Of a stretch of 39,996 nucleotides of DNA, positions 12,589 through 34,145 are shown piece by piece. Location: positions 1 to 39,996 of IMG/VR virus record IMGVR_UViG_3300032217_000206. One strand, 5' to 3'. Under the pieces are notes generated by a model. The model was not told where the DNA came from. It worked only from the letters and a program-made list of their open reading frames with translations, and ran no database searches. Source of the DNA: a virus. Positions within the stretch are counted from its first letter, which is position 1; every line of letters begins with the position of its first letter. The translations under genes and the position numbers were made by a program.

Positions 12589-12608
12589 GCTATTCCTATG
12601 CTATTAAG

Positions 12609-12704
12609 TTGTTGGAACTCAATTTGGTCTTTGGCAAGGCAAGATGGAAAGCTCGAAAAAATCTTGCATCGACATCCTTGAAAGCGAGCTTAACATTCCA
12701 ACAA
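12609..12704 (-). ncRNA. structured 5' leader of the late operon
   Basis: Read on the minus strand, the 96-nt segment starts with TTGTTGGAA and ends with its exact complement TTCCAACAA (outer stem, 9 bp). Inside lie AAGCTCG and CGAGCTT (12685-12691 and 12649-12655, 7 bp), giving nested long-range stems. The predicted start of transcription from the TATAAT at 12709-12714 falls at the 5' edge of the outer stem. The late start codon is 20 nt beyond it. This is a candidate regulatory leader (antitermination, stability or translation control); no known RNA family is recognised. Confidence 0.5.
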
Positions 12705-12708
12705 AATA

Positions 12709-12737
12709 ATTATATACACCCAGAAAAGTTTTGAGTA
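12709..12737 (-). promoter_or_regulatory. candidate late promoter, perfect TATAAT
   Basis: On the minus strand TACTCA (12732-12737) is followed after 17 nt by a perfect -10 box TATAAT (12709-12714). The -35 matches consensus at only three positions, so an activator may be needed, as expected for late genes. Transcription would start about 12702 and enter the structured leader, then the late gene block beginning at 12588. Confidence 0.5.
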
Positions 12738-12797
12738 AAAATTTTTATACAGGGATACTTATACATAAATATCCACAGCAATTACACATCTTATTGT

Positions 12798-12826
12798 CTG
12801 TCAATAAGTAAAAACCCTAATAGAAT
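12798..12826 (+). promoter_or_regulatory. candidate plus-strand sigma-70 promoter with operator half-site
   Basis: CTGTCA (12798-12803), 17-nt spacer, TAGAAT (12821-12826). The spacer carries AAACCCTAATAG, a half of the palindrome family seen in other early gaps. Transcription would enter 12833-12970, which has several short stems but no open frame with a ribosome site, so it may make a non-coding RNA or a long leader. Confidence 0.35.
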
Positions 12827-13127
12827 AGATACGGGGCCATCATCCAGCCCTTGGGAAGGCAGAGTAGCTTACCAACCCAGATAAACGTACCGAGTCCATT
12901 GGTCTCTCTAGTAGGCAACGAACGGGAACATACAAGTGGAGCCTAACAAGGTCAGGTTAGATAAACAAGGTGCTACTTTCTTTACGAAGAAAAAACAGTG
13001 GATGCCATAGTTCGTCCACAGTTCTTCACACAACCACCATCTCCCATCCTAGCAATCACCAATCAGTCTATGTTGTTTTGTTACAACAGGAAAAAGTTTA
13101 TGGAAAATTTTGGGAATGGGTGAGTGG

Positions 13128-13180
13128 GCCTCCCTCTTTCCAATCCTTTCCAGTCCTACCCCCCTCCCCTTATTCACTGG
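13128..13180. other. pyrimidine-rich tract
   Basis: About 50 bases on the plus strand are almost all C and T, including a run of six C followed by TCCCC. It lies just upstream of the iteron array and stands out from the AT-rich surroundings. Strand-asymmetric tracts next to iterons occur at several replication origins, where they aid strand opening or priming; here the role is inferred. Confidence 0.45.
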
Positions 13181-13489: not shown

Positions 13490-13513
13490 AGGGTAAACCC
13501 TATTAGGGATTTG
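13490..13513. promoter_or_regulatory. operator-like palindrome upstream of block A
   Basis: Two overlapping palindromes share bases: AGGGTAAACCCT (13490-13501) and AAACCCTATTAGGGATT (13496-13512, one mismatch). They belong to the same family as sites at 15281-15341, 16871, 18265 and 18888. A TATAAA lies shortly downstream (13523-13528). The block A start codon is 115 bp further on. Confidence 0.6.
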
Positions 13514-13574
13514 GAGGGGCTATATAAATCAACAACTTACGAGAGCTGGCACGATTCTATTATGCTATATATGT

Positions 13575-13596
13575 GAGAGCATCAAAAAAAGCTCTC
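13575..13596 (+). other. hairpin in the leader of block A
   Basis: GAGAGC and GCTCTC form a 6-bp stem with a 10-nt A-rich loop, 31 nt before the ATG at 13628. No T tract follows, so it is not a terminator. It could stabilise the mRNA 5' end. The next 15 bases (TTTTAATAGGTGTTA, 13609-13623) recur exactly before the gene at 14380. Confidence 0.5.
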
Positions 13597-13627
13597 AATT
13601 CAATCAACTTTTAATAGGTGTTACATC

Positions 13628-14068: not shown

Positions 14069-14299
14069 ATGGCATATACATTAAAACGATCAATTCAAGG
14101 CTTATCCGATGATGATATCTGCAGAATATATGACAATAACTTAAATATGACATTGAAAGAATTGTCTAATTTAACTGGATATGCTGTGCCATATCTTAAA
14201 AAGATATTGATGCAGGAAAAACCTACACCCAATGCTCTGGATATTGCATTTGATCACCCAATGCAAGCACTAGACAAGCTCACTATTCGCACACAGTAA
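14069..14299 (+). CDS. small protein with helix-turn-helix-like segment
   Basis: A 76-residue protein. The segment MTLKELSNLTGYAVPYLKKI has the spacing of a helix-turn-helix (MTLKELSNLTG then recognition-like helix VPYLKKILM). The rest is short, so it may be a DNA-binding adaptor or regulator and a candidate to bind one of the operator families nearby. Assignment as HTH is by eye only. Ribosome site GGGG lies 7 bases upstream. Confidence 0.6.
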   Translation: MAYTLKRSIQGLSDDDICRIYDNNLNMTLKELSNLTGYAVPYLKKILMQEKPTPNALDIAFDHPMQALDKLTIRTQ

Positions 14300-15280: not shown

Positions 15281-15341
15281 AAGGTAAACCCTAATAGGGT
15301 TTCTACTAATAGGGTAAACCCTAATAAGGGTAAACCCTTAT
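15281..15341. promoter_or_regulatory. cluster of three operator-like palindromes
   Basis: Site 1, 15286-15302: AAACCCTA-A-TAGGGTTT, perfect. Site 2, 15310-15323: TAGGGT-AA-ACCCTA, perfect. Site 3, 15324-15341: ATAAGGGT-AA-ACCCTTAT, perfect. Three adjacent perfect palindromes without coding capacity indicate a high-occupancy binding region for one dimeric protein. It lies in the convergent gap and so does not overlap an obvious gene promoter; it may act as a partition, replication or titration site. Confidence 0.7.
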
Positions 15342-15434: not shown

Positions 15435-15794
15435 TCAAGGAAAACGTAGGAGATAAAGTGTCGAATCAATTAACTGCTGAATTTCATCTGCAATGTTCTG
15501 TATTTCAGAATCTTGCGGCAAAAATTGCCTTTTTTCTTGGAAATAATCAGAAAGGTCTTGAAGCTCTTCTTTGCCATTGGCAGCGGGTACATGGTAAGTG
15601 GCGGGATATTCAAGGGTTATTTCATACTTGCCTTGAATTGCCTCAACAAGGCTATCTACACGCTCTGGAAGCTCATCATAGAACGTGCCAAGGGCTTTGT
15701 GCTGTGCATAAGAATTTGTCTGCCAGTGCAGAATGTGAGTATTTGTTGCTGAATGCAACAAGGTCAAAATCAATTCGCCTACTTCATTGTCCAT
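15435..15794 (-). CDS. Dps/ferritin-like DUF5856 protein
   Basis: A 119-residue helical protein. Residues 20-57 (HILHWQTNSYAQHKALG, then YDELPERVDSLVEAIQGKY) carry the pattern of the phage DUF5856 family, which resembles the Dps ferritin fold with His, Asp and Glu at positions suited to bind a metal. The family is scattered in phages of aquatic bacteria; its role is unknown, with DNA protection or redox metal binding as ideas. It is the last gene of the early minus operon and follows a 42-nt gap. Confidence 0.7.
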   Translation of the reverse strand: MDNEVGELILTLLHSATNTHILHWQTNSYAQHKALGTFYDELPERVDSLVEAIQGKYEITLEYPATYHVPAANGKEELQDLSDYFQEKRQFLPQDSEIQNIADEIQQLIDSTLYLLRFP

Positions 15795-15836: not shown

Positions 15837-16106
15837 TTACATATTGTCATTGATTAACTTTTGAATACCCGCATGAATGGACCCCTCCCCCATTTCAGAC
15901 AGTATTTTCTTTTGTAATTCAGTTAAATCAAATCCAAACTCTTTGGTGGTCGTGCGTTCTTTTGGCCTCCCCGCACCATTTCTTTTACCCCCCCATGTTA
16001 ATAATTCACGCCCTAGTTTTTTTGACTGTGCATCCCGCCTTTTCTTGACCATATCTGCATAGATTTGCTCAAGCCTCCATTCGGGAATGTCGTCAAACAT
16101 ACTCAC
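15837..16106 (-). CDS. small putative DNA-binding protein
   Basis: An 89-residue protein starting at GTG (16106), supported by AAGGA seven bases upstream and by GTGA overlap with the preceding stop; an ATG two codons later is less well placed. Centre: WGGKRNGAGRPKE, a basic Gly-rich linker often found before ribbon-helix-helix domains; then FGFDLTELQKKILSEMGEGS and IHAGIQKLIND, which fit a short strand and two helices. It may be an RHH-type regulator or nucleoid-binding protein; this is by eye. Confidence 0.6.
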   Translation of the reverse strand: MSMFDDIPEWRLEQIYADMVKKRRDAQSKKLGRELLTWGGKRNGAGRPKERTTTKEFGFDLTELQKKILSEMGEGSIHAGIQKLINDNM

Positions 16107-16809: not shown

Positions 16810-16870
16810 TGCTTTCCCCTTAAAAATTATTGACAACTAAACTGTAACTTGAATTCTTGATTAATTGTAT

Positions 16871-16883
16871 AGGGACAAACCCT
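16871..16883. promoter_or_regulatory. operator-like site inside the early minus operon
   Basis: AGGGACAAACCCT, in minus-strand reading AGGGTTTGTCCCT, shares AGGGTTTGTCC with the site at 18888-18905. A TATACA lies immediately downstream on the minus strand. It overlaps the end of the nuclease gene by one base and precedes the gene starting at 16809, so it may control a second promoter within the operon. Confidence 0.5.
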
Positions 16884-18207: not shown

Positions 18208-18264
18208 ATAGCATCCTCGCAAACCTCCAGAAAGAAACTGCGGCAGGAGGGAGGTACTCTTTTC

Positions 18265-18286
18265 AATAGGGTAGCTACCCCCTATT
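18265..18286. promoter_or_regulatory. palindrome in the gap between two early genes
   Basis: AATAGGG (18265-18271) and CCCTATT (18280-18286) flank an inner GGGTAGCTACCC (18269-18280), a perfect 12-bp palindrome. It belongs by sequence to the TAGGGT half-site group. On the minus strand it can form a stable hairpin ahead of the DUF1376 start, 60 bases away. There is no T tract. Confidence 0.55.
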
Positions 18287-18309
18287 TAGCCGTGTTTCAA
18301 AACAGTGTA

Positions 18310-18678
18310 TCAGATACTTTGATTACTTGTAATACCGCCAGTAAAGTATGGATTGCCCCTAAATAACTGGTTAGCTTGCGCCTTCATTGTTCTGTACTCA
18401 GTGGGCGTAAAAATACCCTTGGCATTACGCCAATCAAAGGGATTGTTTTTGTCCCAAGGCTTCTCTTCTTTGGGTTCTTTAATCATGTGATCTGCCAGAG
18501 TGTATTTGGCAACCCATTTGTTGCCGTCTTTAACTTGCTCTGTAGTCAATTTGCCTTGATATCTAAGCTTCTTCGCAGTAGACAAAACAGTGTCTTTGTT
18601 CATGCCTGTTTGCTCTGCAATTTGTCTCGATGTAAGTGGTCCGTTTTGTAATACTTGTATTACTTGTGCTTGTGTCAT
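18310..18678 (-). CDS. HTH-type DNA-binding protein (winged helix)
   Basis: A 122-residue protein. Residues 1-60 form a winged-helix unit: QVIQVLQNGPLTSRQIAEQT, then GMNKDTVLSTAKKLRYQG and KLTTEQVKDGNKWVAKYTL as the wing. The C-terminal 60 residues are Pro/Asn/Trp-rich and unstructured with PTEYRTMKAQANQLFRGNPY. A regulator that binds operator palindromes is a fair guess; it is the second gene after the divergent promoter. Its start overlaps the stop of the first gene (ATGA). Confidence 0.7.
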   Translation of the reverse strand: MTQAQVIQVLQNGPLTSRQIAEQTGMNKDTVLSTAKKLRYQGKLTTEQVKDGNKWVAKYTLADHMIKEPKEEKPWDKNNPFDWRNAKGIFTPTEYRTMKAQANQLFRGNPYFTGGITSNQSI

Positions 18679-18881: not shown

Positions 18882-18910
18882 TTGTCTATTAGGGTTTGTC
18901 CTAATATAAA
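18882..18910 (+). promoter_or_regulatory. sigma-70 promoter with operator filling the spacer
   Basis: TTGTCT (18882-18887), exactly 17 bases, TATAAA (18905-18910). The spacer is occupied by ATTAGG-GTTTGT-CCTAAT (18888-18905), an inverted repeat of the family also at 16871. A protein bound there would block RNA polymerase. The promoter serves block B, whose first ATG follows after 47 bases with AGGAG upstream. The same site is suitably placed to act on the divergent minus operon. Confidence 0.65.
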
Positions 18911-18957
18911 TAGTTAAAAAACCGTGGCATATTAGAGGCTCTTTAACAGGAGTCACT

Positions 18958-32529: not shown

Positions 32530-34145
32530 TAGAAAGCATCCTCAACAATAGTTGCTTGCCAATTAAGTGCAGTTAAATTCCATGTATTTGTAGCATCATT
32601 TGATTGCACTTTTACTGAAATAGTCCGAACATTGTTTTGTTGCGTTGTAACCCAAGGGTTGTCAGTCACAATCGATACTGTGCCCACCTGACCATATGTA
32701 GGCGCTTGAGCTGTTGAGTTAGCTCCACCAACAGTAATATCTATATTCCCAGAACCAGCTATTTCAGGCAACAACCTGTGTACATACACTTTAGAGCTGT
32801 ATGGCACAGCGCCTTGTTCATTTTGCAATACCATGTTCTGACGTTCAAACAATGCTGAAATAGGCGCACTATTAATAAAAGAATTACCAACACCTGTTTG
32901 AACTAATTTAGAACTAGCAGTGCCGCCTCGACCATAAACAACAGTACGAGAAGCAAACTTAAAATTACCGCTCACCAACTTAGGGGCTTCACAAGCATTG
33001 CAAGCATTGGCAATATCTTTGGGTGCATTCCAAATCTGCAAGTCATATCGCCATGACAGCATTTCATTGCACCAACCAGTAGATGTCAGATTAGGAAAGT
33101 AAATTTCAATCTGATTTTTTTGGGTGTTGTTAACCATGAACAAACGGTCAGAATATGTAGGGCTTAGATTGTTAAAGAAATAATCTCTAACTTTTTGGTT
33201 GCCCAAAGGATTAAAGTTTGATCCATCAAACACCCAAATGTCACGGCTATCAATGCCATATACATTGGTATCAGTATTTGACCAACAGTTGTTGTTAATC
33301 AGTCCACGACCTTGGTTAAACAAACGTATACCAAAGATAGGTGCGGTGGAGTTTTGATAAGCAATTGGACTAAAGACTACTGTGTCCCAATAGGAACAAA
33401 CATAAAAGTTACCACCTAAAAAGAAGCCATCAACAATAGGTCCACGAACAGGAATCTCTTGTTCATTGGCTACGTTGCTTATAGTAGGAACCCATGTGGC
33501 GGGCACACCAGTGTTAGCAAAAGATTGCGACCATCTTACAGTTGTAGGATAGTTAATCGTAGTGCCAATAGCATAATCTTTAGTCAAATTGCCCGCAATT
33601 AGAATGTTGCCTACATTGGGTGAGCAAAAGTTTCTAACAAATGCGGCACGAGTGGCAGTTACGCCAATGTCGTAGTTCCACACATAGTTGTTAGGTGCTT
33701 GATCGTAAATGTAGATTTCTGTTGCTGTGGGCAAGAAATACATGGGTGAGCGCAAACCATCATTGATAAAGAACACATTACCTACCCAAGAGGTGGTGAT
33801 GTTTACGTCATCAGAGTAGCCACTTAAAGCTACGCTAGGATTTGCGCCCACGCCTGGTGTAATGTTGGAGATTCCCGCAGAAGTCAATAAATACCATTTG
33901 CCTTCACGAGTGGCAGCAATAAAGGTCCATTGAGTTTCACTGCGGAAACCGCCATCCATATAAACTACGTTGCCTGGTATGGTTGAAAGAATCTCTTGTT
34001 CACCAGATATCTTTTTTACACCACGAACGTCAGCTTCAACATTGCGACCAGAGTTATATTCGTTTGGCCCCAAAGCATTGCTAGGTACATCAGGCGTGTA
34101 GCTCATGTTTGTAAAAGGCGTACGAATTCGGCTGTAGTCGCTCAT
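32529..34145 (-). CDS. tail nozzle-like protein (beta-propeller-type, gp10-like)
   Basis: A 538-residue, beta-rich protein with frequent Trp and Asn. The start (YSRIRTPFTNMSY, then GPNEYNSGRNVEADVRGVKK) is of the type used by P22 gp10 and SU10 nozzle proteins, which form the hexameric tail tip under the adaptor ring. Repeated W-containing strand patterns (TQWTFIAATREGKWYLLTS) fit a propeller. Length also fits. It is placed just downstream of the fibre gene and two small genes. The stop overlaps the next ATG by one base. Confidence 0.65.
   Translation of the reverse strand: MSDYSRIRTPFTNMSYTPDVPSNALGPNEYNSGRNVEADVRGVKKISGEQEILSTIPGNVVYMDGGFRSETQWTFIAATREGKWYLLTSAGISNITPGVGANPSVALSGYSDDVNITTSWVGNVFFINDGLRSPMYFLPTATEIYIYDQAPNNYVWNYDIGVTATRAAFVRNFCSPNVGNILIAGNLTKDYAIGTTINYPTTVRWSQSFANTGVPATWVPTISNVANEQEIPVRGPIVDGFFLGGNFYVCSYWDTVVFSPIAYQNSTAPIFGIRLFNQGRGLINNNCWSNTDTNVYGIDSRDIWVFDGSNFNPLGNQKVRDYFFNNLSPTYSDRLFMVNNTQKNQIEIYFPNLTSTGWCNEMLSWRYDLQIWNAPKDIANACNACEAPKLVSGNFKFASRTVVYGRGGTASSKLVQTGVGNSFINSAPISALFERQNMVLQNEQGAVPYSSKVYVHRLLPEIAGSGNIDITVGGANSTAQAPTYGQVGTVSIVTDNPWVTTQQNNVRTISVKVQSNDATNTWNLTALNWQATIVEDAF

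Follow-up and report, generated by a model that had tools for sequence, protein, structure and literature searches.

The window analyzed here is a complete stretch of a virus record, 39,996 bases in length. Palindromes built from the half-sites AGGGT and ACCCT, which we refer to as boxes, are found in the gaps between its early genes. Six sites in the window have the strict form, at 13490, 15281, 15311, 15327, 16871, and 18891. The boxes and the features that accompany them are as follows.

12811 to 12822, no strand assigned: a degenerate copy of the box, upstream of a leftward late operon.
13490 to 13501, no strand assigned: a perfect 12 bp palindrome, AGGGTAAACCCT, that precedes the early operon running rightward from 13628; the orthologous site in G283 is at 32636.
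13505 to 13519, plus strand: a second half-site, AGGGATTTGGAGGGG, a direct repeat 15 bp beyond the first, with a degenerate AGGG at 13505.
13547 to 13572, plus strand: the promoter of the 13628 operon, TGGCACG..TGCTATATAT, near-invariant in an alignment of about ten phages.
15281 to 15292, no strand assigned: AAGGTAAACCCT, a site with one mismatch and the opening unit of an array in the gap between convergent genes.
15296 to 15309, plus strand: a half-site within the array, AGGGTTTCTACTAA, of a sequence type that recurs in other array-bearing phages.
15311 to 15322, no strand assigned: a perfect AGGGTAAACCCT, array unit.
15327 to 15338, no strand assigned: a perfect AGGGTAAACCCT, array unit.
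15837 to 16106, minus strand: a gene for an 89-aa protein with a ribbon-helix-helix-like C-terminus (a sequence pattern; the fold is predicted).
16841 to 16846, minus strand: a -10-like TACAGT, conserved in relatives, whose distance to the first base of the 16871 box is 37 bp.
16871 to 16883, minus strand: an asymmetric 13 bp box, AGGGTTTGTCCCT (AGGGACAAACCCT as read in the window), ahead of the leftward operon 16808-15435, of which the 15837 gene is part.
18224 to 18296, minus strand: an int-alpA-like RNA (RF02996), the variable stem of which is the palindrome at 18265-18286.
18891 to 18902, plus strand: an asymmetric box, AGGGTTTGTCCT, preceding the operon that runs rightward from 18958, with a promoter conserved in G283, G293, and L135.
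18930 to 18935, plus strand: a -10-like TATTAG, whose distance to the first base of the 18891 box is 39 bp.

A chance origin of the boxes is ruled out by shuffled sequences and by backward patterns. Dinucleotide-shuffled windows contained a mean of 0.01 strict sites and a maximum of 1, compared to the six that are present. All six are located within gaps of the 12.6-19 kb region and the late blocks contain none, as had been claimed in an earlier note on this DNA, which placed the family in the early region and saw no such set in the late block. A looser pattern, AGGGTNNACCCT with two mismatches allowed, was no more frequent in a scan of the window than expected by chance. Our claim is therefore limited to the strict form. 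The palindromes listed in the earlier note hold up at 13490, 15281-15338, 16871, and 18891, but not at 18265-18286, which is an RNA stem. The first of them, given there as 13490-13513, is a perfect palindrome over 12 bp only (13490-13501); the remainder is the degenerate second half-site.

The box is retained at orthologous promoters, namely those before the 18958 operon (G283, G293, and L135), the operon with the 15837 gene (14 relatives), and the 13628 operon. In the 14 relatives that keep the 16871 box, it often reads AGGGTAAGTCCCT or a variant of it. Within the operon downstream of this box, the gene at 15435-15794 (minus strand) matches phrog_858, labeled as a starvation-inducible transcriptional regulator; its sequence looks Dps/ferritin-like rather than like a repressor. 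The 13490 module, consisting of the box and the direct-repeat half-site, is alignable in about ten other phages (e.g., L076, L049, L057, L051, and L018). A GAGAGC...GCTCTC hairpin is located at 13577-13597, where the 13628 operon transcript is predicted to have its 5′ end, and similar arms are found in phages that share the promoter. The half-site at 12811-12822 aligns with a complete TAGGGGTAAACCCTA in L404, L405, and L409 and with partial sites in other relatives. Thus, it is a worn member of the family, and its earlier assignment to the set was correct. It lies within a non-coding region (12590-13163) that is about 80% identical to relatives and contains a near-invariant TACGGGGCCATCATCCAGCCC at 12830-12850. 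A search with the array sequence against phage and plasmid collections returned no match.

The palindrome at 18265-18286 was rejected as a box. It has a different spacing and forms an RNA hairpin with a covarying stem: in 28 homologues the pairing is kept while both sides change, with up to 17 sequences for one pair. Likeness to the int-alpA RNA (RF02996) accounts for this palindrome and its surroundings. The match in the window scores 22.6 bits, below the gathering score of 35.8, and that in the relative L129 scores 37.2 bits, above it. The window copy also differs from the known RNA in preceding a DUF1376 replication gene. The int-alpA-like RNA upstream of this gene is conserved with covariation in many relatives.

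The distribution of the box was determined in 26 relatives recruited solely via the replication protein, which together with the window make up 859 kb. Intergenic DNA is 6.7% of this sequence and holds 24/26 sites (symmetric 13/14, asymmetric 11/12). The backward-pattern controls occurred 1 and 0 times in the 26 relatives. The earlier note had expected the motif to be present in relatives, and this is the case in about half of the 26; the strict scan found no site in the rest, nor in the complete relative MW202484, where no repeats that might replace the box were evident. For most relatives, the scan revealed neither an equal density in coding late genes nor absence of the motif, the two outcomes that the earlier note had named as refuting its reading. 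The box-bearing phages span several terminase groups, and arrays in other phages are found before small-terminase-like genes. Contigs were also recruited by the box alone, with counts that cover the matches listed. Among these, 53/69 non-redundant sites fell outside ORFs of at least 90 aa, versus 10/44 for the controls. We found nothing relevant in a literature search for the box.

The position of the box relative to the -10 is regular. When distances are counted from the first base of each of 108 non-redundant asymmetric boxes, strong -10 hexamers occur at 36-38, 46-49, and 56-58 bp, in peaks about 10.5 bp apart, i.e., about one helical turn. As descriptive measures (both the on-phase bins and the Rayleigh test were chosen with the peaks already in view), 34/50 were on phase compared to 6.4 in shuffles, with 0/500 shuffles as high, and the Rayleigh z was 14.4, a value that 0/500 shuffles reached. 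Of the two, the Rayleigh value is preferable, being independent of the chosen bins. The size of the -10 peak varies with the matrix (64/95 at 36-37 bp versus 37/95 at 35-39 bp), and the conclusion on phasing relies on the stricter -10 test, not on these two matrix-dependent counts. With the -10 placed at -12, the center of the box is near -42, -52, or -63. In a weak test for the -35, 10/37 promoters had at least four matches to TTGACA, and the mean score was slightly above that of the shuffled spacer. The 13490 box is out of phase, 76 bp from its conserved -10, and no promoter is evident at the 15281 array between the convergent genes. We observed directly that the sites exist, lie between genes, are retained at orthologous promoters, and are phased to the -10 by helical turns. 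The box is a real, conserved phage regulatory element that is helically phased to promoters.

Activation is the usual reading of a phased box with its protein on the face of RNA polymerase. Going by its placement in the DNA, the asymmetric box is probably an activator site, centered near -42, -52, or -63. The geometry points to activation no less than to repression, and repression from these positions is conceivable. On balance, we favor the explanation that the AGGGT/ACCCT palindromes are putative boxes of one dimeric transcription regulator, which would activate from the asymmetric sites and also bind the symmetric and array copies. We infer that the binder is a single dimer, that it activates, and that the symmetric and asymmetric forms share it. 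Besides this phage, many others, mostly from fresh water, would use the regulator. The asymmetric form, TTAGGGTTTRTCCCTA, would be placed upstream of the -10 on a single face of the DNA, either near -42 or farther upstream by one or two helical turns; from there, the bound protein would contact RNA polymerase and turn on early operons and regulatory ones. Symmetric copies, as well as arrays, at the boundaries of gene blocks (13490, 15281-15338) would be further sites of the same regulator. The set of sites fits one half of the proposal of a phage-wide regulon under one protein, as it is intergenic, conserved, and phased to the -10, but no protein family covers all site-bearing phages.

A search by family co-occurrence for a common DNA-binding protein found none that spans all of the site-bearing phages. 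Four HTH proteins had been put forward as candidate binders. Those at 18310 and 20467 are equally or nearly as frequent in site-free as in site-bearing relatives, and the one at 14069 was not found in any protein family that separates the two groups. The 15837 protein is the only listed candidate associated with the box, but it is neither always present nor sufficient.

It is conceivable that the box is the operator of the ribbon-helix-helix-like family encoded at 15837-16106, which would repress its own gene and control the neighboring promoters, as in the case of P22 Arc and Mnt. The family was discovered by its presence in six site-bearing records and zero site-free records, and a profile of nine members matched only site-bearing contigs in the first set. 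In loci recruited by the protein, the box is located 57-68 bp before the start codon in 53/68 cases, between the gene and a divergent promoter; it overlaps the gene's presumed promoter, with the divergent one facing it. These loci (539 kb) contain 142 sites versus 0 for the backward controls. In the lineage of the window, a box likewise stands before the operon that contains the gene. Among the loci listed from recruitment by the box alone, the family is present in 22/118, versus 0/75 control loci. However, box and gene do not strictly accompany one another: G274, G285, G289, and G292 have boxes without a family member, and MW202484 has a 15837 orthologue without a box, both of which weaken the family as the sole binder. 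Subfamilies have different residues in the strand predicted to read the DNA, yet their box is unchanged. Searches of Pfam, PHROGs, and PDB gave no support for a ribbon-helix-helix fold, and a structure model of the protein has the two helices but not the strand. In light of this counter-evidence, the association of gene and box may mean that the regulator acts on the gene instead of being encoded by it.

Another phage-encoded regulator, outside the list of the earlier note and differing between phage groups, is likewise possible, and we hold it with reserve. Several phages without the 15837 family have a Cro-like gene adjoining the box, and the two kinds of gene are never found at the same locus. 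Among the 118 box-recruited loci listed, a Cro-like gene is present in 11, both genes in 0, and neither in 85, these loci being partial; no Cro-like gene is present in the 75 control loci listed. The proteins that adjoin the box in G274, G285, G289, L119, L136, and L140 are Cro/YdaS-like and 50 aa in length, and several of their genes have a palindrome at their own -10. These separate palindromes (TATAAGTTGGCTTATA, TATAAGTTGCCTTATA) are likelier operators of the Cro-like proteins than the box is. This, and the failure of the co-occurrence search to find a common family, count against the alternative.

A regulator of the host that reads the box and is exploited by the phages appears rather doubtful. 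Some Burkholderiales chromosomes carry AGGGTWWACCCT operators that overlap or lie upstream of a TATAAT, in pairs 24 bp apart, and the upstream site of a pair has a distance of 35 bp to the -10, similar to that in the phages. The genes downstream are those of small proteins, a phasin, and CoA metabolism. Burkholderiales promoters of this type, with GGGTWWACCC over the -10, precede small proteins (LTDALERDL-type and others) and phasin in L152, L155, L166, L169, L170, and L416-L445. A host regulator would also fit a box common to unrelated phages with different local regulators. Nevertheless, AGGGTAAACCCT alone is only mildly enriched across Burkholderiales, and matches to the asymmetric box were found in 3/399 Burkholderiales and 1/398 Pseudomonadota genomes, similar to the backward control and thus at background. 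The near-absence of the asymmetric box from the sampled Pseudomonadota chromosomes argues against a host regulator, which we do not favor for this form. Seven bacterial genomes with the motif yielded no credible homologue of the 15837 protein, and in a protein search for the host the nearest match was only a phage from the Manatee Spring metagenome.

A role of the arrays in replication or packaging, instead of promoter control, is improbable, since the single boxes are spaced to promoters and the sequence recurs at operon starts. In favor of such a role, the window array is flanked by convergent genes, and the arrays of other phages precede small-terminase-like genes.

If the dimeric regulator proposed above is real, a regulon is defined in phages that are seen mostly via metagenomes. 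It would provide a sequence rule for locating their early promoters, and the regulator could be captured with a 16-bp probe. Two unrelated small DNA-binding proteins alternate beside one box, which allows one to ask whether phages have a regulatory code in common, whatever repressor they carry. We raise, as a speculation, a common early-promoter code in which unrelated freshwater phages share the promoter box of an exchangeable putative activator, with different local repressors (ribbon-helix-helix-like or Cro-like) attached.

Parts of this arrangement resemble known systems. Arc and Mnt of P22 are ribbon-helix-helix repressors, and the 15837 protein is like them in being a very small phage protein with a similar turn motif (GxGN/S..G), encoded by a gene adjoining a candidate operator. 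It differs in that it has no family or fold match, its predicted contact residues vary, and the box is also found without the protein. The GGGTWWACCC operators of Burkholderiales, for which we know of no regulator, share the palindrome, the intergenic location, and the link to a TATAAT. Theirs mostly overlap the -10, as expected for a repressor, and these chromosomes do not make use of the 13-bp asymmetric form. At the lambda PRM promoter, where CI binds OR2, and at the class II promoters of CRP, a palindromic site near -42 lies beside a poor -35, and other activator sites are located whole helical turns further upstream. The phage box has another sequence, its activation is predicted, and we found no CI-like or CRP-like binder, whereas the layout is the same: a palindromic box centered near -42, with others whole turns upstream.
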